A stretch of 64,000 bases of DNA from Owenia fusiformis. Taxonomy: Eukaryota; Annelida; Polychaeta; Sabellida; Oweniidae. The stretch spans positions 29,266,005-29,330,004 of the forward strand of contig CAIIXF020000008.1 of the NCBI GenBank assembly GCA_903813345.2, written 5' to 3'. Below are positions 7,859-24,363 of the stretch, one piece after another. Position 1 is the first letter of the stretch. Each line of letters opens with the position of its first letter. Under the pieces are notes generated by a model. The model was not told where the DNA came from, made no database searches, and saw only the letters and a program-made list of their open reading frames with translations. The position numbers and the translations under genes are program-made.

Positions 7859-10800
7859 ATGGAGTATCCAAGAGATGATCTAAATACTCAGAGAGAGGAA
7901 ACTAAAGTCCGTTTCTGGGAGTACAAAAGAATAAGCTGGATATCAAAATGGCTGTTCTGTTGGGTATCACAGTTAAAAATCAATGTGACTAAAGGACGAC
8001 CGGGGTTGACGTATCTAAACAAAGATGGGGATATGTGAGTAATAAATGATTTTAATATTAAAAGTAATTTTATCATTATTGCTTTGCACGGGCGTAGCCA
8101 GGGAGATCGCACCACCACAAGAAAAGAAAAAAGCAATTTTGTAAAAGTTGAAAAAAAAATTAACAAAGTATAGTTTGAAGTGCTTAAAATGGACCATATA
8201 CAATGTAAATCTTAAAAAATTCCTGGGGGTGAACCCCATACCTCCCTTTGTGGGGGTCTCGCTTCGCCCGCAGTGATGCAAACTCAAAAGTCGCACCCCT
8301 TGATAATTAGTGACTACGCTTCTGTTGTGTATAAATATTGATCAAATGCATATCAAGTTCATTTCATTTTCAAAATCAAATCAATCTTCACCTTATCTTG
8401 TGATTGTTTTAATGACATTGTAGTGATGATGAGACATCTTTATTGAAAATATTGTTCCGAAAGTCTGGAAGGAAATTGATACTCTCTGGACTCTTATTTC
8501 TTATATCGGTAAGTTACCTATTAATAGATATTTTAAGTTCAATTTAAAATGAAATGTAAGCACAATGTACTAAGCTATACGCAAAAGCATGGGTTTTAGC
8601 CAGATATGAATTAACGAAAAACAAGATATAAACAGGATGATTAATGCACTACCATTTTTTAAGAACACTCTCTTATATGATTTCAATTAGCCATGTAGCC
8701 TATTACTTTATATACCATTGACAAAGAAACTACATTAAGTATTATGGGAAAATAGTCTAAGCACAAATTGAAGAAGACGCAACCTTAGTGACAAATCGAG
8801 CAGTGAAGTGAAAAAGTTTTTTGATGAACAATACTTACTTTTTATGTTTGGTTCGGCCTAGGAACACTTAATATCCTACAAGTTTTGCTTAATTAATTAT
8901 ACTCCTCAAAAAAGTTAAGGACCAGTGGTTTTCCTCATAGGTTTACATGTTAACCCCCATATTTGTTTGAACGACTATTTTCTAAGCGGGGAACAAAGGA
9001 AATCCCAATAAAGTAAATAAATCTGTATCTTGATTCTGTTCCCTATAAAGTCCGCAACGTTTCAATGTTATATCTCCATTACATTGGGTCAAAATTTGAT
9101 GTCAAAATTGATGAATTTCATGAAATTTAACAAAAATGGCAACCACTGGTCCTTAACTTTTTTTTGAGGAGTATATTATGCACATACAGTAGAACCAGTG
9201 AAAGTGGAACACCTAGGGTACCTTTTAAAGAGTTCCACCTGAAGTTCCGACTTCCGAGGTTAATTATCTGTAAAAGTCAATTGGTTATGGAAATATACAA
9301 ATGTTCCAATTATGGAGGTGTTCTACATCACAGGTTTTACTGTAATATAGATATTTTTACGTTTACACTGGGGGATCCAGGGGGGTGGGCATGGGGTTTT
9401 TAGGGTCTCAAACTTTGTAGGGCCTCAAAATATGAGCCTTTTTTGGCATAATTTGGCCTTTTTATCAAAAATGGGCTTTGATTTTTAAAATTTGGGCTCA
9501 ATTTTTGGTTTTAGGGTTCAAAAATGTTAATTTCTGGATCCCCCACTGGTTTATTTGAATGCTGCACTGCCAATTGACGCTGAATATTTTTCATTTTCAT
9601 AGGAAAATGTATTATTGGGCTTACCAACATGCCTCAAACAGATCACGAGGTATATATCAGGTTCCGCCTCACTGGAAACTGCAATAATATGGTCCTGTGG
9701 TTTTCTCCTGCTTCTGTTGTGCCATGCTCTGCTGCATCATTATGCCCTGTTCGTGTCTAAGCATGTTGCTGGCATTATGGACTACACGTGTCGTCTACAT
9801 ATAATGAATAAAGTAAATTGTTCTTTCATTTGATAATGTGGATATTACTTGTCAGTGTCTGTTAAATTCTATTTTAATTTACATTACACAATAAGAAGGT
9901 TATGTTATGGTATAATACCAGTTTAATTCTTTTTTACTTTTTTTCTTACTTATAAAAGTATTTTAAAAGAGTTTCTTCAGTCAATAGTTATAACGTTTTA
10001 CCTGAGATGAAAAATGAAATGATAGCATTGAACTAGTAAAATGTTCAGTCAATAGTTATAACGTTTTACCTGAGATGAAAAATGAAATGATAGCATTGAA
10101 CTAGTAAAATGTTCAGTCAATAGTTATAACGTTTTACCTGAGATGAAAAATGAAATGATAGCATTGAACTAGTAAAATGTATAACGATTTCCAGCTATCT
10201 ACACGAACTGATAACGAAGGTGAAGATTTAATGGTGAAAATGAACGATGACCTCAAAAGAGTATCCAGTGGAATAAAATATATGCATTTCACGTGGGTGT
10301 ACGCTATACAACTACTAGTTATAGCAGTGCTTCTCTTCCGAAGTGTCAGCTATACTCTGATTATCATTTGTGTCATTGTTGTTGTCTCAGCACTTATACT
10401 TGCTGTGAAATCAAACTTGGCAGCTGGAAGGTATAAACTATAAACATTTAAATTATCTTATTTCGAGTTTGGCTAATAAGGTAAAAATACTTTTGTCACT
10501 GTTTCAATAGTGCAAAATTGTAGAACTAGGCAATTATTTTTATTTAGAAATGTCAGAGAATTCATATCGAGATTCAATACATGTATAAACAAATCTAGAT
10601 GTAGTGTTAGATACAAAATACCTTTTTGCTGCAATGTGAACGATAAAAATACGATGATGAACATATTTTTCAATGTGATATTGTCAGGAAAAAGATCACC
10701 AAAGCAAGAGAAGAACACGAGGAGGTAGGAAAGGGGATATTTGGAAACATGGAATTCCTAAGTCGAAGTACATGGCAAAAGCCCCTACTTCGTAGATACA

Positions 10801-13800
10801 AACGACTCAAAAGGTTAGAAGTGATAGAAGTTTTTAAAATGGCACATGTCTCAGTTGGGCATTGGTTAAATTTCAGTCATTCTTTTTCACTTCTTTATTC
10901 ATATTTTTTTACATGCGCCAGCATCATAATATATGCATTCGGACGCAGTCTAATCCGTGGGACTAATCTGGATGTTAACAAAGGGCAATTCTTTTCTAGG
11001 ATCTACCTTGGACTGGTTCAAACAAATACGATTGTCCGACTGTGTCTCAGAATCGCAGCCTTTGTTATGCCCCATATTGGGTTCAGCCTCGTTTTGGCAG
11101 TTTACCTCGGACAGAATACTCCCCCTACTTACACATTGATACCTGATATAGTCATATGGCTTATACTTTTTCAATACGGATGTACAAGAAGACTGCCAGA
11201 TGGAGTGTATAGTAGCATCCGGATGGTTGCATCAGTGAATAGGATCCAGGTAGGTACATATTATATGATACATTTTGTATATTAGTGTTGAGTCTAAGTG
11301 TAGGCATCATATCAGTTTTTTGAAAATGGGTCATCATCGGCAAAATGTGTCTCACATGTCTGTAGGTTAAAAAATGTTTGAAATGATCCATATAGCTTGT
11401 CATATCGTTCATAATTACCTTTCCCAATAATTAATATAGATGAGTCTCATCCTAGTTAATTCCGTTCATATATACAGGGTGAGCCAAAAATATAGCCCTA
11501 ACAAGCTCATTCATTCAGCATTGGTTTATTGTCGCCTTTGGCACAATTGAGCCTTGCTCAATATTCTTTCATTTAACGAAGTATTTTACTCGATTCAAAA
11601 ATAGACAAAAACGTGCACCAAGTGCTGAAACATGCCACACTCACCCTCCAGAGACAGAGACACCAAAGGAAAATGTTTTGTAAAATGACCAAAGAATGGT
11701 TGTGCCTATTATGACTTAATACCCATACTAAATGACTGAGCTATCAACAATTGTTTGGTTTACCTTTTTGGCTCACACTCTGATATTATAGACAAAATTA
11801 ATTTTTACTACTACCGTTGCCATTCCTAGAAGTTTCTAGTCAAGGCCGAAGACGTCAGGAACCCAATGCATAATGGTGAAGACACAGGGATGTATGACGT
11901 CATCCTTGAAAATGTATCCGGGTCATGGCAAAATAAAACTACAAAGAAAAATGTCGAAGATGCAGTATTTCTACTTCAGGACATTAATATTGAAATCAGA
12001 AAGGTGAATTTTGCCGTTTTTATTTTGAAACACAGATGTATCCGTACATTCTCCATTGCTTTTTCCTACACTTTAGGTGTATGATCTACAAAGACAATTG
12101 TACATAAACTGCAGAAAAGTAGTTTTCTGTACATGTTATTTTGCAATTGTCTTGCCACGCCGTATATACACAGTGTATTTATTGTAAGCATTGCCTCTAG
12201 TTATACCCAAGGACGGACGTTACCAAGATTATAATGATGCTTTAATAAAAAGTACCAATTGCTTCACCTGCTTTTCAGGGAGAAATGGTGTATTTTGTTG
12301 GCCCACCAGCTTCAGGAAAGGTATACATTTCTTACTCTATAACTTTAATTTATAAATTCAAGTCTATTTTAATGAATGAATTAACAACGAAGGGTTACAT
12401 GTATATACATTTTAGAGCACATTGATGGCCGCAATAATGGGGCAACTGCCCTTTACCAAGGGACGGGTATTTTGTACCAATAGCATCAGTTATGCCCCTC
12501 AAGATAACTATATGTTACCTGGTACTATTCGGGACAACATCCTGCTGGGAAAAGACTTTGACCCGGAGCGTTATGAAGCTGTCATCGAGGCATGCGTATT
12601 GGGAGATCAGTTGGGTGCTATGCAACGAGAGGATTTTACTGAAATATATGCGGACCAATCAGAAGTGGCGAATGATGTGGTTGTCAAGGTGAATATAGCG
12701 AGGTATGTAACCAAATACAAGTTAATTCAGTTTGCATAATTACATTCTACGCTAAACAATATACGCAAATTTACAAAATGTCAATTTTATAAAGATTAAG
12801 TTACATGTGGCAATTTGATACGACATAAAATAATGTACTATACATTTATAGGGTTTTGTATGCTGATACGGATATGTATGTGTTCGAAGATATATTTTCT
12901 TACCTAGACGAACCAGAATCGGTTGCAATATTCAAACGGTAGGTCGAATTGTAAAATGCTATATTTTTGCGATTCCGTCGTGTGTTACAACATTTCTGGA
13001 CTACCCACTGCTTATGGCTATTTTATGTAAAATTTTAGAAATGTTATTAGTTGATATAATTTTATTGTTTCTTGCCCTCTTTATGTACTCATTAATGATT
13101 TTACACCATTGGCCGTATATTTGGAATTTTTTGATGGACCCCGGTAAGTTATGCGTTTAACTAAATTAAAATATGATTCATGACCAACTGTATGAATAAC
13201 AATGAGATATTTTGTGAACACGTTTGTTGAAAATTTGATTTGATCATCTAAAGGTGCAGGTAGCCACTGAGGTTGCTTGTACTTTCAACCACCTGCATTT
13301 CAGGACAGTTTTGCGAATTGCAGAATAAAAAGATCGTTAAGACGTATGTCGTAATATCCCTCATCTATTTTAGGGGAGTACAGAGTTTCCTACATGGCAA
13401 GACTAGAATTATGATTTCTAGGACACCACCAACCATTCCTACGGAGGAAGCAAGAATCTGCTCATTTATCGAGGTAATCATAAAGTTTTTTTACAGAGTT
13501 AATTTCAGTACTTGCTTTGGATTCTCAGGTGTTTTTCTACTCTTTAATATTTAGAAATATATATGTACTTGCAAATGCTACTGCGATTAAGGTTGTGCAT
13601 CATGATAAACAATGACATCTCATTTTTCTCAGTCCTCGGGTGAAACAGAAAGATGCTATGAGTATCAGAATGATGGTTGTGTTGCGAGGCTTGATCAAAT
13701 GGCGCGTGGGATTTACACAGCAGTATTATTGCGAACCTATGTATTATGCATATTGATGCCTTTTCAGGGAACGCTCTTCATCAATGGACTGTACCAAGAC

Positions 13801-16800
13801 ATCGATGGCCAAGATCGCGTCAATCTCATAAACAATGTATTTCGCCAGAATGACACTAAATTAAGTGACATAACAAAAGAGGCAATATCAAGTGAAAATA
13901 AGTATATTCAATATGCTCACAAAAACATCTTAGCCAATGCACATCCTGAAAACAAGACACTAAGATTTGGCAAATTATCATCTGATGCCCCTGCAAGTGT
14001 AAGCGATCTCAATAATTTCGGCTATTGGTCTGAATTGTTGACATGTCGCTTGATTGCACTTATGTGTATGTTTATCACATCGGTAACAGTGTGTCAGGTA
14101 TGTTTTTAAAATAATGTTAATTGGGAGATTACATTGTAAATAAAGTTTAATGAATGATCATTTTATTTTGCTTATTAACATAGTTTATCAACAGTTAATG
14201 ACTCTTAGTTTTTCATCTCCAACCATTGATCAATAAATAAGAAATTCCATGCATTTCTGATTATAAAACAATATCGACAAAATATGAAACAATTAATATC
14301 TTTTGTAGGCCTGTTTATATGTTGGAATTTGGTGGATAATTACTTTGTGAGTATTAGTTAATCATAACTCAATCGCATTTTAATGTTTTCTTATAGTAGG
14401 CTTAAAGTATTTGTAATGCATCGTAACACCAGTCCGTGTCTGTAAACGTATTATCTTTATTTTATCAAGAAAAAATACGTTTTGTTTTGTGCTTTTTAAG
14501 ATACGAAACTAGTTCTGAGGATTTGCCACTAGTGATAACTGCAAAGGTCGAGAAGGATTTGCTGGACAAACAATGGAATGCAATATATATTTACATTGGA
14601 ATGACTGGTGGCTCAGTAGTATGCGGACTAATATCTGCCCTAGTTTTACCCTACATCATGCGTCATGTGTCACAGAGGGTTTACCTCAGTACCTTCAATA
14701 TATTGCTTAGAACAAACGGAAACTCTAGAGTGACATTGCACCAAGGTAAACATTTAAGTATAGAAATCCAATATGTATTATAGGGATAATGTCGATTTCT
14801 GACTTCGATTATTATGTCAGCTACGAGGATGGATGTTGGCCCTTGATAACGGTTATCGACCTTGAGACTGGATTATGTCTGTCCCGCATCATTTTAGACC
14901 GAATGTCCTATCTTGTTTGAAAACTAATGTCTGCAACTTTATTGATGGACTGAGTATTGCTTATCAATTTATATAAATTTATATTTATTCTTCAACATAT
15001 ATTGTAATGGCTTTTGAATGAATGAAATGACCTTGATTATAACAAAAGGATTTGTATGGTTGGGGAGGGGGTATTAGACATTGTTTCTTTTCACGTTGGA
15101 TTATGGTTTTGGATAAACTGGGTTTGCGTTTCTTATCACTTGTGTTCACTTCGATTTGGAACAATTTTTGTTTTTTTCTCCTTGTCACTCATGTGTACAT
15201 ATCTTTACTCCCTGAAACATTGATTTAATATACAATATGAGGCAATGTGCAAGCAAAGGGGGTCAACGACAATTTTTTAGTATAGATATGTTTGGGGAAA
15301 TATGAATACACACAAATGAAAAATGGAACATTACAAACATTGACAAATCGATATCAAATTAAGTAAGATTTAAAAAATCTTTAAATAAGTAAATTCTAAT
15401 TCGAAACTTATTTAATAAATGACCAACATAATTGAATCATTTTAGCCCTTGTGTAAATATTCACACGAGGACAAAATGTAATAATGTATTTTTGTTATAT
15501 CAGTTTCTTTTATTTATTAGATGAAACATGGCGGCATTGTAGTGTTTAAAGTGTAATAATGTATTTTTGTTATATCAGTTTCTTTTATTTATTAGGTGAA
15601 ACATGGCGGCATTGTAGTGTTTTAAGTGTAATAATGTATTTTTGTTATATCAGTTTCTTTTATTTATTAGGTGAAACATGGCGGCATTGTAGTGTTTTAA
15701 GTGTAATAATGTATTTTTGTTATATCAGTTTCTTTTATTTATTAGGTGAAACATGGCGGCATTGTAGTGTTTTAAGTGTAATAATGTATTTTTGTTATAT
15801 CAGTTTCTTTTATTTATTAGATGAAACATGGCGGCATTGTAGTGTTTTAAGTGTAATAATGTATTTTTGTTATATCAGTTTCTTTTATTTATTAGGTGAA
15901 ACATGGCGGCATTGTAGTGTTTTAAGAATAATAATGTATTTTTGTTATATCAGTTTCTTTTATTTATTAGATGAAACATGGCGGCATTGTAGTGTTTTAA
16001 GTGTAATAATGTATTTTTGTTATATCAGTTTCTTTTATTTATTAGATGAAACATGGCGGCATTGTAGTGTTTTAAGTGTAATAATGTATTTTTGTTATAT
16101 CAGTTTCTTTTATTTATTAGGTGAAACATGGCGGCATTGTAGTGTTTTAAGTGTAATAATGTATTTTTGTTATATCAGTTTCTTTTATTTATTAGATGAA
16201 ACATGGCGGCATTGTAGTGTTTTAAGTGTAATAATGTATTTTTGTTATATCAGTTTCTTTTATTATTAGGTGAAACATGGCGGCATTGTAGTGTTTTAAG
16301 TGTAATAATGTATTTTTGTTATATCAGTTTCTTTTATTTATTAGGTGAAACATGGCGGCATTGTAGTGTTTTAAGTGTAATAATGTATTTTTGTTATATC
16401 AGTTTCTTTTATTTATTAGGTGAAACATGGCGGCATTGTAGTGTTTTAAGTGTAATAATGTATTTTTGTTATATCAGTTTCTTTTATTTATTAGGTGAAA
16501 CATGGCGGCATTGTAGTGTTTTAAGTGTAATAATGTATTTTTGTTATATCAGTTTCTTTTATTTATTAGATGAAACATGGCGGCATTGTAGTGTTTTAAG
16601 TGTAATAATGTATTTTTGTTATATCAGTTTCTTTTATTTATTAGGTGAAACATGGCGGCATTGTAGTGTTTTAAGTGTAATAATGTATTTTTGTTATATC
16701 AGTTTCTTTTATTTATTAGGTGAAACATGGCGGCATTGTAGCGTTTTAAGTACCGTAATGGATGAGAAATTACCACAAGCTTTGTTCTCATTTACAATGG

Positions 16801-19800
16801 TATGTTATAGTTGAGATATTGATATATATATTGGTCATAATTATATATAATTTTAGTATCTAAATAAAACTAGAGCTATCAATATTACTTTACACACAAA
16901 CACATTTTAGAAATCATAAATTCAAATACAGCTATAATCAAATGATTCAAAGAGATACAACCAAGATTTTAATAATCACCTGTTGTTCGGGTAATAGCTA
17001 ACGACAGTGGACGATTTTACTACCGTGTCATATTTATTTTCAACTCTAGGCTATCAATACCACCATCGGAGCATTGGTACTGATTACGATATCACAACCA
17101 TGGGCGCTCATAGCACTATTAGCCACAGCAGTTGTGATTTCTCTCCTAGCTGTCAAAAGCGTACATTTTCTCAGGTTGTGTCGGATTACTGACTTTTGGA
17201 GTACGTAATATTTAAGTTATACATTAATCGAAGGGATTTTATGATAGATATATACAGGGCGTCAAATAAGTCTGTTCTCCCCCCTTAACTTTTTAATTTT
17301 TAAAGTTATCTTTTTATAGCTTATGGAAAATGCTGATCACCCTCAAAAAATCAATAATGAACTCCTCCTAATAAAATTGCTACAATGTTTCTTGAAAGGT
17401 TGTAGTTGACCTTTGATTACGTCAAAACAAGTAAAATTACCAGTATACATTATCACGGGGGATAAGCAAAACGAGGGCGAAGCCACGGACTGCGACTCGC
17501 GTAACTTTACACCGCAGCCCAGCGCCAAAATGGAGGGACATCCGGCAGTGCCTTCTGCTTGTTCCGACAAAATAGAGAAATCCAGGTATTTTAAATGCTA
17601 TCGTAGTGTCTAATCGGTGACCAAAATATTACTCTGTATCTATTGTTGGTCTGTAGATAAGAAAATAAGCAGTTGTCCAGATCAAGCTAAAACAGTAGCA
17701 AAGTTCTGATTTTACCTGTAAAATATGTGCATATTATTTAATTTACTATACATTTGAAAGGAGTTTTAACACGTTTCTGATACCTAAAGGTTAGTTGAGG
17801 CTCCGAGTATAATTCGTGAAAATGATTTGATAATAGAATGTGTTCATGAGGAGAAAATTAGATTCAAACTGCGCATTCATAGTGGACGCAGTCCAGTAAA
17901 CAAAGCTATTTCAACAACGCAACACAGCCTCCATTGATATTCTAAGCAACGCAGTCCAGCCGCGAACACGAAATAAATAAGATAGTGTAAACTATATTCC
18001 TGATGACAACGTAATATGTTTATTACAAACCAATTTGTGGATAGGGTTAAATATATAGATAATTGGATAGTGGTAAGACTTTTTATAAGAAGTAGAAATG
18101 CGAAACAATTAACTTTTTGATGATTGCAATAAAAGCTGTTGGGGAAGGGTACATTAACTAGTATTTAAGATATCAGGAAAATATCAAATAATTGGAGAGT
18201 TGGTGAGTTAATGTAATTTTGGATGATCTTTCCAACAGTCCATCAATATTGCTAGCTACCATAAATTCATGATTTCAGCTGTATTTGACAGCTTGTATAT
18301 ATTTGCAGAATGGATTGAGACACGATGTAGGTCTATTAAAATAGCCCTTTATATTCAATTTTGTCCAAAGTTGCTCCATTTCGGCCACACCTGTACACAC
18401 ATTGTGCTATCTACCTTTGGCTGTGATTGCGTTCAGCTTCAGATATAAAGCAACACTGAGTCGCGGACTGCGTTGGGCAGATGGATGGACTGCGACTATT
18501 ATAAATTCCAATTTTCTATGTAATTGTACGTTTTCCGCTTACCAAATATCACACGAAGATGTAATTGTAACAACACAACATGAATAATTATATTAATTCG
18601 ATGTCATTTCTGATTCCTTTGTTTAAATCGGTATATTAGGGACAAATATTGACAAAATTACATTTTTTGTGGCAGATTTCGAATTCATTTGTGTTCATGC
18701 TAAACTATTGGACAGCTGAGCACAAAGAATGCCATTGCAGGTGGAGTATGAATATGTTGATCACCGACTGGAACATACTAGCTATTCTGTAGAATATCCA
18801 AACCAATAATCTACCCCAAATCCTAACATGCCTTCCAAATTAAGTTTGGATTTACCGCCATTGTTCAGCTATAATGCGTTGTAACCTCGTTTTGAATTAC
18901 GCGAGTCGCAGTCCGTGGCTTCGCCCTCGTTTTGCTTATCCCCCGTGATTATGTTATGGTGAATGAACGGTGCAAAGTTGATATTGCAGTGACAATGCCA
19001 ACATTGGTTGATTTAGATATTTCTCAGTATGGTAAAAGAGTAAAATGTGTTACATTCAGGAAAGCATTTGAAACAGGGGCACCTTTCATCACAAAAAGTA
19101 GGTAACAACCAAAATTAGACGTTCAGAATGATTTGAACATATCGTATCCTCGTAGAATTGAGGCTGTCCCAGCTGCTGGGGGAAAACATACGGACCATAA
19201 AAAAGTGAAATATGAACATCACTAGAAATGCTCTAAAAAATTCAGAATTCAGTCAATCAATCTGAAATTTGGTGTTGGATCGGCAAATTAAATTCCCTTT
19301 AAGATGGTATATAACAATCCTATGTTCTCTCATAATTAAAAAAGTTAAGGGGGGAGAACAGACTTATTTGAGACCCTGTACTGATATATATCTTCCTGAA
19401 AAAAATCTCGACGGGGAAATTTCACGAAAAAGATAATTATACCAAAAATATTAATAATACGGGATGGATACTAGGTGTATGCTTATATGTATCTTATTTA
19501 TCATAGTAATTGCAGTAGTATTACACATTGAATTATATATTTAGATTTAAAGTACAAAATAGCTTAAATTTATAGGTTAATATCACAATAACTCTTACTT
19601 TCAGATAACACAAATTACATTAACTTTTGGACGCAGTCCCAAGCCACCGGGCCATGCACAAATTCAGTGAAGTCTTACGTTGTTGATAAACTAAAACGAA
19701 TGATACTTGCTGAAATAAATGGAAATATAAGTCTGCTAGGCTCCCTCAAATGGTTGTTTTTGCGGATCCAATTCATTGAGCTAATTGCAATAATAGCAAT

Positions 19801-22800
19801 ACTAATCATAGTTTTGCTACACCCTGGTATGTTCATTTATCACATTTTACAAATACTAGATGTTAACGTAAATGCTGTTCGCTTGCACTTACATTATTAG
19901 GGTTCGTTTTTATAGGTATATATTTGTTTTAGTTGCCGACACTTCGTAACAAAACAAATAGATATAGTTGAAAGAATTCTAAAATACTCGCTTGCCATCG
20001 AATAATTTCAAATGCACCATTACGATATCCCGGACAGCTCCTCATCGTATTATATGCTCAGGAATATAGTCAGGGATTATATGTGTATATTCGCAGGTAC
20101 CAATGTGGCGGGTCCTAGTCTAGTACTAACATTTATGATAGCTGCATATCTTAATGCACACGAAATGGTGAAATATGGATCCGAACTCGGGAACATGGTA
20201 AGTTATTTAGCAACTCTATCAATTATTGGTGTCATCACTTTAGGCAACAGCATCAGATCATGGTTAATGGTAGAATTTCATTTTAATAAATATAATTTAA
20301 ATAGATGAACAAAATAACATCCCAAATATATAAATAAGACTACACCAGACGAAATGCAAGTCGGGCAGTATGCTATAAACGCTATGGGAATATACAGGTT
20401 CTTATTTCGAGGGAATGGATCAATCAGAGAGTGTGGAATACAATACCATCGTTATCTATCATCATCTTCTTTAGATATCCTTACTTAATGACACAATTGA
20501 GAGACTGGATCTCAATAAAGTTCTACAGCCTCCGACCTACATACCAGTTTCCAAATCTTGGCCAGTGAGGACTACGCTGAACGTAGAATACAGGAACCAA
20601 GTATTACAAGAACCTTTGAAATGCATCTTTAGAGAAGGAGATATGGTAACAGATAGACTTCTATATTTTAGCATTTAGATGTTCAAAAGAAAAGTGCTAC
20701 ATACTAATTGCAATCGATTCAATACACCCCGCCCCAAAACAGAGGTTATGGTGACTAAGGGGAGAACGCATTGAGTAGTTGTACCATAGGCGACTGGTAT
20801 TGTACCTCTGGTTAGTCTTGCTTAAAAGACCCTGTACTCCCCCCCTTTATCCTTCTCTCTATTGCCAGGTAAAGAGAGTGAAGGTGGCGGGGGGGGGGGG
20901 TGGATACAGTCTTTGAGCAAGACTAGTCGATTACCGAATCATCTTGAAAGCATTGCTCCGGATCGGAGACGTACATTCGTACGTACGTTTTGGAATGGGA
21001 AGCTCTTGTTTACATACGTCCGAAATCTATGACTGGAGAATTTTTAAAAATCAATAAACATAGACATGCTTTATCACGTGGTCTGAAAGTGGACATTTGG
21101 TTTCCAAATATTTGAAGGGGATGTACAAAATCGATTGACTAATCGATGGTTTTGATTTGATATAGGTGTCTGTGTATGGCCAGAATTTTACGGACACTGC
21201 CATTTTTACTGAGCTGTTTTGTGGCAAAAACGACTCTGCCTCTACTGTGACGATAGATGGCGTGAATATAGCGACTGTGAATCCTAAAAACTTGAGCGAA
21301 GTTATTGCCATTATACCTAAGGTAAATGTCTGTTAAATTATTGATTTGAATTGATTCAACAACTTAAGGAAAATTAATATAGAAGTTAAAAGAAATGCGT
21401 CGGAAGGTGTAATGGCCTCAAGAAAGGTAAAGGTATAAACTGTGAAACAAAAATATCTTTTTCATGTGTTATATATGCTGCCTTTGTACGTTCTCAAGTA
21501 ACTTTAAATAATAACTTTTTTGCACTCCTCGATAGGAAATACCGATATTTAAAGCCACACTCCGCACAAACCTAGACCCGCTTCATGAGTACGCTGACAG
21601 CGAGCTTTGGCTGGCTCTGCAAGAAACTGGCCTGAAGCCAATGGTGGATGAATTTAAACATAAGCTATATACCTTGGTTGATGGGGATAGTTTCGATGTG
21701 TTGGAGAAGCAATTGTTATTGCTCACTTGTGCTTTGCTGCGAGAACAGAAGATTATTGTCATATGTGATGGGCCATTGTTGAATAGGTAATGAAAGAGAA
21801 ATGATTGTGAATAGACGGCGACCTTTGCTGGGTTGTATGTATTTACAGGCAGGTAGAATGCGATAAAGTACGGTAATTGGGGATATAAGGGAGTTTAAGC
21901 TTGCATATAAAATCGAAACGCCAACCTATACGTATGACCAATCGCCCATACGAATGCATTACTTAAATATTTCCGTGTCGTTTAGATTATGAAAAACATT
22001 GCAAGCTTAAACTCCCTATTACTTGAGAAGGTGAATGATTCGTCAGTTTTCAATGGAACGAATTTGCCACTCCCTTTAATGTAGCTACAATTCTTGATTC
22101 GATTTGTAAGTTATCGAATGCTATGCGATACCTGCAACTTTCTCTTTTTCTTCTCTCATTTCTTCTACTTGTTTATCAATTTCTTGATTTTTTTCTTTTG
22201 AATATTTAATGTTTAAGCATCAGCTGTCTATTTAAATATAAATGCAAAAAATGTACATTCAAGAGAATGTCAAGCAGAGATATGTAACTTATCAATGTAA
22301 TGAAAAGTATTGAATACCATCATGATAAACATATTATCATTCATCGATAAAACAAATGCATCGTACTTATTTTGATCATAGTTACAGTTATATATGCCAT
22401 ACTTTATTTATTTTAACAAACATAATGTTTGAAAATTCAATGTATAGTTTTTCTAGAATATAAATTATTTTAATATTCTCATTTCTTTTATTAGGTACTC
22501 TCCCTTATTAGAGAGCATCGTCGAACGTTCGTTTCCTAGATGCATTTTCTTCTTCGTAACAAAGTCTGCCTCACCGCTGGATATGTGTGACAAAATATTG
22601 GTAAGGGCTTTTTCTTTAGTTTTTTGGATTGCGAAAAAACAAATTAATGACATTTCTCCACTGGCAAACAATGTAAAAAACCACCAAGTTTCACAGAATG
22701 TTTTTGATGAATACTATTTCATTGACTGGTCATTCACTTTTATCAAATATTCTCTTAGAAAACGAGGTCCTAAAATATTGTGTTTTAACGTTTAGGTGAA

Positions 22801-24363
22801 TTTGTATTGTTCTGGATGTTAGTTTCTAACGTGATGACATTATAGTTACAATCACAGTTTTTTTTACTTGCAAGGCCGTTTTGTCAAGGGACTTCAGGTG
22901 TTTAAAATTTCAATGGGGTTTCAATGTTGACAATATTCAGCTAAAAATCACTTGTATATTGCTCAAAACTTTAAAAACTGCATGGTTTTGAAAGGCGATG
23001 GTCCTGCAGGTTGTAGAGTTTTGTAAAGTAATGTCTTATCAATCACGCGTGTCAATAGATATTTATGATTTGCTTATTTTTATTTTATAATGAAATATCA
23101 TGCTGAAGCGAGACACTGCATTTAAAAAGTAAAAACAGATAGCATATTGATTCAATCTTTTTGATTAAGGTTCTACATGATGGACATCCGATTGACATTC
23201 TCAGGACAAATGATTTAAATTCACAACGTGAAAACGTGGACGGCGCAATAATCAACCATGTTGAGCGAGGAAAGAAACCTTCCCATGTGAACACGATCAC
23301 CCACAAAAATCCCCACAACAGACTGGAAATGAAACACTTGAAGTCAATCGCATACGATTACAAATCTCGGCAAGTGAGATTCAATCAAAAGACTCACAAG
23401 TCTTCCTCTAGGGGTGAAAGTTCAGAAGACCAAGGCATATACAGTGCAGAATTGCAAGGCTCTGATAACACCAGCTCCGTATACTCATCCAAACATCGAG
23501 ACAAACCTTGGATTGAGCTTCACATTCCAGATGGGTATAACGGAATACACAATTTATCCGAACCAGAGTCAGTTTACATCAGTGATCAAAGTAACATTTC
23601 TCAAGTACATACGTCTGTAAATATTTCTCAAAAACAATCAATGACGCCTTCAGTCACGGACATTAAAGATGATCGGCGTGTCTATAACATTGAAGATCAG
23701 AGTGTTGCGACTTCTGTTGCTATTGACAGGAAAGGTCGTATATCGTCTAAAGCACGACAATCAATACTTGAAATGCTGCCAAGGGGTAATATAACAACCA
23801 GCAACGATGATTTGTCAACAGATGAGCAGAATGAAAGCAACACTGAAATCGATGGAATACAGGGTGCTCCGAACTTTGCATTGGAAGACGCCGAATTATC
23901 AGACGACTCATCGACTGGAAGTTTCGTAATCGAGTTTGGAGACTATACGGATGACCAACAGAAAAAATTGTCAGAAATACTCGGTGAAGATATACAGTAT
24001 ATAATGTATAGCAAAAAGAATAGTAAATCCAGAAGTAGTGATAGGAACACTTCGCAGACTTCTACTGGACTTGATACCCTTCATAAAAGTGGAGCTTTGG
24101 GCACGCGATTTTCCACTAGCAGAAATGTATCATTCGGCACAAGCAGACAGAGTTTATTTCGAAGCCAGAGTAGCAATGATAGAGCTTCTTCAACAGGATT
24201 GTCAACTTTCGCACCATCCGTACTTTCAAATTCCAGTCAAAATGAACTTCCGGTTCGACATTATCGTAAGCGGCATCATACCACGAGAGGGCGCTCTCAT
24301 CGTCTCTCGTCATCTTTCCAATACCAACGATCACACTCAGTTCGACGGGACTATCGAAATTAA
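7859..24363 (+). CDS. ABCC/CFTR-type ABC protein with degenerate ATPase sites (23 coding exons)
   Basis: Exons: 7859-8034, 8424-8508, 9603-9812, 10195-10430, 10688-10813, 11000-11249, 11830-12003, 12279-12320, 12416-12702, 12852-12938, 13374-13473, 13768-14097, 14309-14346, 14501-14745, 16720-16799, 17050-17200, 19605-19826, 20097-20197, 20475-20645, 21166-21321, 21536-21786, 22495-22600, 23170-24363. All have GT-AG borders, all phases fit, and they give 1605 aa. Order: N-terminal lasso-like segment (WISKWLFCWVSQLK), TMD1 (to ~361), NBD1 (~385-600), linker, TMD2 (~680-975), NBD2 (~1000-1215), and a Ser-rich, probably disordered tail (~1220-1605). TMD2 aligns with CFTR almost without gaps (WNAIYIYIG, TIGALVLITISQP, RIQFIELIA), so it is a short ABCC without TMD0. 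The ATPase motifs are mostly lost (see the domain entries), so active transport is doubtful; a channel, scaffold or regulatory role is possible. It may be a diverged CFTR/ABCC4 relative. Confidence 0.85.
8898..9175. mobile_element. Tc1/mariner-like MITE in ABC intron 2
   Basis: The terminal inverted repeats are about 33 bp: ACTCCTCAAAAAAGTTAAGG at the left and its complement at 9141-9175. TATA-type flanks are compatible with a TA target duplication. It is 278 bp long with no coding capacity. Confidence 0.8.
9366..9549. mobile_element. GGGCC-rich MITE-like repeat, copy 1 (ABC intron 2)
   Basis: It begins CACTGGGGGATCCAGG and ends GGATCCCCCACTGG, with an internal stretch of repeated GGGCTC / TTTGGGC words. 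Related copies lie at 45366-45670 and 59556-59727. The shared ends (CACTGGCGGATC-like) mark one dispersed family. Confidence 0.65.
9976..10179. repeat. Three perfect 68-bp tandem copies just before an ABC exon
   Basis: Units start at 9976, 10044 and 10112, each beginning TTCAGTCAATAGTTATAACG. The last ends 15 bases before the acceptor at 10195, so the duplication sits in the branch-point/upstream acceptor region of exon 4 without copying the acceptor itself. Confidence 0.9.
11473..11782. mobile_element. Short inverted-repeat element in ABC intron 6
   Basis: Left end TACAGGGTGAGCCAAAAA and right end TTTTTGGCTCACACTCTG form imperfect terminal repeats, about 310 bp apart. The CAGGG(T)-type end with TA flank resembles mariner-derived MITEs. 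There is no coding capacity. Confidence 0.6.
11830..13473 (+). other. NBD1-coding exons of the ABC gene (degenerate)
   Basis: Five exons encode NBD1. Walker A is conserved, GPPASGKST at residues 427-435, and is split between a 42-nt exon (12279-12320) and the next exon after GK. The Q-loop Gln (SYAPQDN, Q462) is kept. The ABC signature is gone: where CFTR has LSGGQ this protein has VANDV (517-521), in an ungapped alignment from REDFTEI to NIAR. In Walker B the usual Asp is Glu (VFEDIF, E541), and the following position is Asp. The H-loop position is Arg (MISRTPP, R574). Human CFTR NBD1 is also a degenerate site but retains LSGGQ; here the loss is wider. Confidence 0.85.
15476..16749 (+). repeat. 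17-copy 75-bp tandem array carrying splice acceptors (ABC intron 14/exon 15)
   Basis: Units start at 15476, 15551, 15626, 15701, 15776, 15851, 15926, 16001, 16076, 16151, 16226, 16300, 16375, 16450, 16525, 16600 and 16675. All are 75 bp except the 16226 unit (74 bp, one T missing). Each unit holds a pyrimidine-rich tract ending TTTCTTTTATTTATTAG, followed by GTGAAACATGGCGGCATTGT and ten further bases. These are the acceptor and first 30 nt of exon 15, whose genuine copy is the last unit (acceptor at 16719|16720). Unit length 75 is divisible by three and contains no stop in the exon frame, so reading through gives a 25-residue repeat containing ETWRHCSVL. A few units have A instead of G after TTAG. 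Confidence 0.95.
17255..19378. mobile_element. Tc1/mariner-like element with TA duplication, interrupted by a second element
   Basis: Terminal repeats of about 42 bp: left CAGGGCGTCAAATAAGTCTG, right the complement ending AGACCCTG, flanked by TA at 17253-17254 and 19379-19380. Without the nested insert it is about 625 bp. Near the right end a short frame reading RIEAVPAAGGKHTDHKK could be the remnant of a transposase C-terminus, but this is weak. It sits in ABC intron 16. Confidence 0.75.
17453..18948. mobile_element. Nested ~1.5-kb element with ~52-bp terminal repeats and TTA duplication
   Basis: Left TCACGGGGGATAAGCAAAAC and right the exact complement, continuing through the CTTCGCCCTCG and CGCGAGTCGC words. 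TTA flanks both sides (17450-17452, 18949-18951), as in PIF/Harbinger-type insertions. Words of the GGACTGCG/CGCAGTCC type recur inside at 17489, 17884, 17952, 18465, 18489 and 18906, resembling subterminal repeats. No intact transposase is seen, so it is probably non-autonomous. Confidence 0.8.
20813..20931. repeat. Hairpin repeat with poly-C/poly-G arms in ABC intron 19
   Basis: TTAGTCTTGCTTAAAAGACC with a C-run is matched by a G-run with TCTTTGAGCAAGACTAG about 80 bp later. Imperfect fold-back; no coding content. Confidence 0.6.
21884..22021. repeat. Small inverted-repeat element in ABC intron 21
   Basis: TAAGGGAGTTTAAGCTTGCA at the left is matched by TGCAAGCTTAAACTCCCT at the right, about 135 bp overall. 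MITE-sized hairpin without coding content. Confidence 0.6.

Follow-up and report, generated by a model that had tools for sequence, protein, structure and literature searches.

A tandem array of 17 near-identical splice acceptors at one exon boundary of an ABCC4-like gene in the annelid Owenia fusiformis

Results

An ABCC4-like gene spans the locus. We analysed a window of 64,000 nucleotides from Owenia fusiformis (assembly GCA_903813345.2, contig CAIIXF020000008.1, positions 29,266,005 to 29,330,004 of the forward strand); all coordinates below count from its first letter, and a slash within a sequence or between two coordinates marks a splice junction. On the plus strand, at 7859 to 24363, lies a gene of 22 exons that we modelled by hand from ABCC homology and splice signals. 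The model runs from ATG to TAA over 1667 amino acids with no internal stop, and all of its junctions are in phase. Pfam recognizes in the spliced protein two stretches of ABC_membrane, scoring 47.2 bits, and one of ABC_tran at 49 bits, both above cut-off, and the solved structures closest to it are those of ABCC4 (best E 5.3e-70), followed by CFTR and further ABCC proteins. It shows the two ABC membrane domains and two ABC ATPase domains of an ABCC protein, the second ATPase domain being seen only through alignment to ABCC5 and others and not by Pfam ABC_tran. An initial annotation of this DNA, made from its letters alone, had recognized an ABC gene with 17 acceptor copies at one exon boundary, and this holds. 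The weakest modelled donor, GGA/GTACGT of exon 15, counts against the gene model.

In alignments the modelled protein leaves several catalytic motifs unmatched. Its first nucleotide-binding domain (exons 7–9, 12279 to 12938, plus strand) retains a Walker A motif, GPPASGKS, and has no match to the LSGGQ signature, while in the second (exons 19–21, 21166 to 22600, plus strand), as aligned to ABCC5, neither Walker A, the signature, the Walker B acidic pair nor the H-loop His was matched. The alignments thus leave the signature and the H-loop His unmatched in both domains and the set of catalytic motifs incomplete, so that, judged from its sequence, the protein looks like a catalytically dead ABC protein, though the modelled frame stays open throughout its 1667 codons. 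Searched with PF00664, the genome gave 83 scored matches (133 candidates), none of them at this locus, although the spliced protein passes the cut-off, which indicates that the gene is divergent exon by exon. Beyond the second ATPase domain the last exon (23170 to 24363) extends the protein by some 380 residues, a long polar tail. Within intron 15, a 2.1-kb stretch (17244 to 19389) is delimited by inverted repeats of 56 nt (86%) and encloses nested ones of 58 nt (98%); it may be a DNA transposon, or one transposon nested in another.

The array occupies the end of intron 13 and runs into the next exon. Exon 13 (14501 to 14745, plus strand) ends at the donor CAAG/GTAAAC, in phase 1, and splits a Gly codon (G/GT). 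Intron 13 (14746 to 16719, plus strand) is 1974 nt long according to the gene model, and its final 1243 nt belong to the array delimited by Tandem Repeats Finder. Exon 14 (16720 to 16799, plus strand) is entered in phase 1 at the acceptor 16719/16720 and left in phase 0 at the donor 16799/GTATGT. The same exon was numbered 15 in the initial annotation, which may count one exon that our model misses, without consequence here; its incoming phase of 1 and its placement of the start of the real exon within the last repeat unit agree with our model.

Seventeen copies of the intron–exon boundary stand in tandem. The array (15477 to 16751, plus strand) repeats a 75-nt unit 17 times, once with a length of 74 nt, and Tandem Repeats Finder describes it as 17.0 copies of period 75 with 98% matches and a score of 2473, which over 17 copies is not a matter of chance similarity. 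Our reading of the units one by one likewise recovered the 17 annotated copies of a pyrimidine tract, TTAG and the exon's opening 30 nt: each unit consists of 45 nt of intron-like, pyrimidine-rich sequence ending in ATTAG, followed by a 30-nt copy of the start of the next exon. A uniform unit of 75 bp had been proposed, and this is correct for 15/16 acceptor-to-acceptor spacings but not for the remaining one (16195 to 16269), which is 74 nt because unit 11 has lost one T before its acceptor (16196 to 16269, plus strand; evident both from the unit-by-unit reading and from translation). With tandem units of tens of bases and high identity the array has the form of a minisatellite, a candidate VNTR, and its unit, made of an intron 3′ end, an AG and the start of the adjacent functional exon, is that of a boundary duplication.

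Differences among the units are few. The AG of the acceptor is intact in 17/17 units, and each upstream unit differs from the first 30 nt of the exon at one to three positions. All 16 upstream copies depart from the real exon start at position +23, with T in place of its C. At +1, 6/17 units have A instead of G, so that the acceptor is followed directly by GT (AG/GT) in 11/17 units and by AT (AG/AT) in 6/17, and small private changes occur in units 1, 7 and 17. A block-wise duplication history, sought in the order of A- and G-units, was rejected, as the longest self-match (5, at a shift of 10) was reached in 88% of 2000 permutations. In 17/17 units a CAG stands 17 nt before TTAG (in unit 17, for example, at 16686 to 16702).

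The unit is confined to this locus, and long arrays are common in the genome. Searching the assembly (498,259,871 bases, 525 contigs) with the unit, by a method that skips very common words, placed 17/17 matches at E ≤ 10 inside the array and none elsewhere, and we saw no second copy or haplotype of the array within the one assembly. As a background sample we ran Tandem Repeats Finder on 160 kb of the genome (including 500 N), taken as 16 arbitrary stretches of 10 kb, and arrays with a period of at least 20 and at least 8 copies appeared in 4/16 stretches (7 entries, 66–94% matches). Against this background the length of the array is not exceptional, and its 98% matches suggest youth. With long arrays so frequent in an intron-rich genome, some would be expected to cross an exon boundary. 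A second tandem array within the same gene (9976 to 10180; 68 nt × 3.0, 100% matches) comes within 14 nt of the start of exon 4.

The repeated acceptors are of middling strength, and the donors that accompany them are mediocre or poor. We scored splice signals with position matrices built from the gene's own 21 donors and 20 acceptors, excluding the array intron for acceptors and scoring native sites by leave-one-out; these are small samples, for which pseudocounts of 5 and 10 were used, and an earlier acceptor matrix with a small pseudocount proved unstable and was replaced. The acceptor of a G-unit outscores 10/20 native acceptors, a middling rank, and that of an A-unit outscores 6–7/20. Acceptor 11 outscores 19/20, a high rank that it probably owes to the lost T, which would bring the pyrimidines into register. 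The CAG of unit 17 is itself acceptor-like, scoring above 7/20. Among candidate donors, the boundary of a G-unit, TTAG/GTGAAA (TAGGTGAAA), exceeds 5/21 native donors, with 7.3–7.8% of the 809 other GTs in the gene scoring as high, and CAAG/GTGAAA (AAGGTGAAA), the donor rebuilt when exon 13 is joined to such a unit, exceeds 8/21 (4.3% of the 809 as high). One native donor of the gene is AAG/GTGAAT, and GT directly follows 4/20 of its other acceptors. It had also been proposed that a GTGTAA after every 30-nt piece could act as a donor and make 30-nt microexons. The GTGTAA is present in 15/17 units, being absent after units 6 and 17, but it outscores only 0–1 of the 21 native donors and is equalled or exceeded by 47–52% of the 809 other GTs. 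Such microexons would be in frame when inserted (1677 aa), and we judge them unlikely on account of this poor score.

Most of the acceptors lead to a premature stop. We joined exon 13 to each acceptor in turn, read through to 16799 and continued through exons 15–22. Acceptors 1–10 (10/17) give truncated products of 866 to 1081 aa: reading from acceptor 1 ends inside unit 1, at an in-frame TAA in its exon-like piece (15521 to 15550, plus strand; 866 aa), and for acceptors 2–10 translation ends at acceptor 11, whose TAG comes into frame through the 74-nt spacing. Acceptors 11–17 (7/17) give full-length products of 1817, 1792, 1767, 1742, 1717, 1692 and 1667 aa, or 1667 + n × 25 with n = 0 to 6. 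From the region after acceptor 11 (16270 to 16719, plus strand), acceptors 11–16 would draw an in-frame addition of 450 down to 75 nt, or 150 down to 25 aa. The earlier claims that all acceptors join in the same phase with no stop, and that any upstream acceptor adds n × 25 residues, consequently hold at the exon-proximal end (7/17 acceptors in frame, with 6/6 of acceptors 11–16 adding the expected residues) and break down for acceptors 1–10. The proposal built on them, that acceptor choice sets the length of a variable protein segment, loses ground through the 10/17 acceptors that stop, although the six exon-proximal units are open in frame and extension by one to six of them is possible. The added repeat includes a 19-residue stretch with a mean Kyte–Doolittle hydropathy of 1.99. 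That a unit should be open is unremarkable, as 4/20 other introns of the gene have an open downstream frame across their last 48 nt, and a third of all periods are divisible by 3. Skipping exon 14 leads to an early end (904 aa), and use of the CAG in units 1 and 17, the two that were translated, leads to a stop at 862 aa.

Homology places the ancestral boundary at the last acceptor. Exon 13 joined to 16720 encodes LRTNGNSRVTLHQG/ETWRHCSVLSTVMDEKLP, which aligns with ABCC4 without a gap (32 protein letters). In the alignment the Gly of NPIG (NPIGR) in ABCC4 stands opposite the Gly codon that the junction divides; few residues at the junction are identical to ABCC4, so the gap-free alignment there rests on the flanks. 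We fetched 16 paralogous loci from 41 matches, several of those in the contig 9 cluster overlapping one another, and found the motif uninterrupted in 14/16. In one locus (L018, contig 4) an intron lies in that same Gly codon, in phase 1, with the donor G/GTAAGT and a single acceptor, TTTTAG/GTCGC, and in another (L020) the motif search found no motif. A single-acceptor intron in the same phase makes it likely that the boundary is older than the array and that the array is a later tandem duplication of it. A genome search with the protein around the array gave no close paralogue, with two weak matches off the locus (E 1.25 and 4.44). The cluster on contig 9 (24343115 to 24369383) consists of ABC membrane-domain matches and is apparently a set of tandem ABCC genes.

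Discussion

Taken together, we consider it likely that the array is a young minisatellite, derived by tandem duplication of an intron–exon boundary, whose upstream decoy acceptors the gene tolerates. The duplicated piece joined the last 45 nt of the intron to the first 30 nt of the exon, and each copy brought along a usable-looking acceptor. Homology supports the junction of exon 13 with the last acceptor, 16719/16720, as the one that would yield the conserved protein. Copies 1–10, acting as decoys, would produce transcripts that by translation stop prematurely and are probably degraded, while copies 11–16 would insert 25–150 residues with a hydrophobic stretch just after the NPIGR Gly, where the alignment to ABCC4 has no gap, and this would be expected to disturb the fold. 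Tolerance could come about if enough transcripts reach the last acceptor, or if whole units are later removed by way of the AG/GT present in 11/17 of them.

Several observations speak for this reading and several against it. The array as a whole keeps no frame, given its one 74-nt spacing and the in-frame stop in unit 1, and the joining of 22/22 modelled exons in frame indicates that the gene downstream of the array has escaped decay into stop codons. On the other side, the 17 acceptors are near-equal and nothing marks out the last one, the one that deviates, number 11, scores higher than the rest, and the six exon-proximal units are all in frame. Moreover, for NAGNAG acceptors, 3 nt apart, the intron-proximal site is reported to be favoured as a tendency (PMC3250501); if this carried over to the array, copy 1 and its stop would be favoured. 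The 17/17 intact AGs could be explained by selection or by youth.

Other readings of the array explain part of these data. Recursive splicing might remove the units stepwise, since joining to a TTAG/GTGAAA unit rebuilds CAAG/GTGAAA, which would erase itself at the next step and leave the final mRNA constant, with the six A-units (ATGAAA) as dead ends. The scores of TAGGTGAAA and AAGGTGAAA against native donors and the native AAG/GTGAAT are in keeping with this, as is the placing of a donor dinucleotide directly after the acceptor in 11/17 units, the juxtaposition by which ratchet points are defined (PMC8605326); tandem duplications containing AGGT are also described as able to turn into introns (PMC4974935). 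Nevertheless the donor is mediocre, with A at +5, the AG/GT juxtaposition is not special in a gene where GT follows 4/20 other acceptors, and a step of 75 nt is shorter than the shortest modelled intron (95 nt), multi-unit steps being possible; we regard recursive removal as unlikely. Improbable, too, is that upstream acceptors often win, so that many transcripts stop and decay and the number of units sets full-length output. The ten stop-giving acceptors are the ones nearest the donor, where the intron-proximal preference reported for NAGNAG sites would act (PMC3250501), and the CAG 17 nt before TTAG is acceptor-like in the scored units and gives a stop in units 1 and 17, but we see no sign of selection for such an effect, and the exons past the array, open over about 800 codons, argue that the full-length product has mattered. 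A copy-number-tunable ratchet, in which G-units step on and erase themselves while A-units (6/17) trap transcripts, leading to decay or, from unit 15, to a longer protein, with array length and G/A pattern setting output, strikes us as quite improbable.

Acceptor choice as a source of a variable segment of n × 25 residues, possibly a membrane segment (peptide MYFCYISFFYLL), was the reading of the initial annotation, and we now find it very unlikely. The in-frame joining of 6/6 acceptors from 11 to 16 and the hydrophobicity of the 19-residue stretch fit it, but the frame is lost at 10/17 acceptors, the insertion would fall where the alignment to ABCC4 has no gap, and chance leaves the last 48 nt open in 4/20 other introns. 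We would be most surprised if the copy number were an artefact of a collapsed, expanded or chimeric assembly: the array is known from one assembly alone, but its units carry private variants (units 1, 7, 11 and 17) and other sequence flanks it on both sides, so that a real array is likely, even should its number of units not be exactly 17. The tolerated minisatellite with decoy acceptors is thus the reading that we retain.

A repeat at an acceptor is known to affect splicing in another ABCC gene. In CFTR intron 8 a polymorphic repeat, (TG)m(T)n, at the acceptor of an ABCC gene alters splicing; it sits within one pyrimidine tract, whereas the array described here repeats the acceptors themselves. 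Among the papers listed by searches of open-licence full texts we saw no report of a multi-copy tandem acceptor array at a coding exon, and the 17-copy degree of the duplication may be new, its kind being already known. In the reported intron gain in the potato RdRp gene PGSC0003DMG402000361, the duplicated piece, as here, contained an intron 3′ end with its pyrimidine tract, the AG and the 5′ part of the exon (PMC4974935); that case had one extra copy, which activated a cryptic donor, GTAAG, and was proven by RNA-seq, in contrast to 16 extra copies and a mediocre donor here. The fission yeast genes SPOG_01682 and SOCG_00815 are described as having an array of several tandem 24-nt copies with an internal proto-splice site (PMC3629103). 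The intron there is made of the repeats, with EST and annotation disagreeing on its extent for one gene, and the repeats resemble nearby exons, with AGGC sites (PMC3629103), whereas the unit of the array in O. fusiformis holds a real intron end.

Other comparisons are more distant. Recursive ratchet points, like 11/17 units here, have an acceptor directly followed by a donor, but are described as lying predominantly in long introns (PMC8605326), in contrast to an intron of 1974 nt with a mediocre donor. NAGNAG acceptors likewise offer several acceptors per exon with a possible in-frame choice, but their AGs are 3 nt apart (PMC3250501), and those of the array, at 74–75 nt and each with its own pyrimidine stretch, are not of that class. 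Further reports describe a minisatellite upstream of a gene that turned into a promoter (PMC3039753), a deletion that removed an acceptor (PMC11018521), and novel intron positions arising via sliding or tandem duplication (PMC2891723).

The array is most likely a repeat tolerated by its gene rather than a means of varying protein length, and as a source of protein diversity it is probably unimportant. It nonetheless sets up a natural competition of 17 near-identical acceptors for one donor at graded distances, whose outcome is readable from cDNA. It could show whether the first, the last or all of the acceptors win and whether duplicated AG/GT boundaries leave as new introns, and in this way it bears on the origin of introns through tandem duplication.
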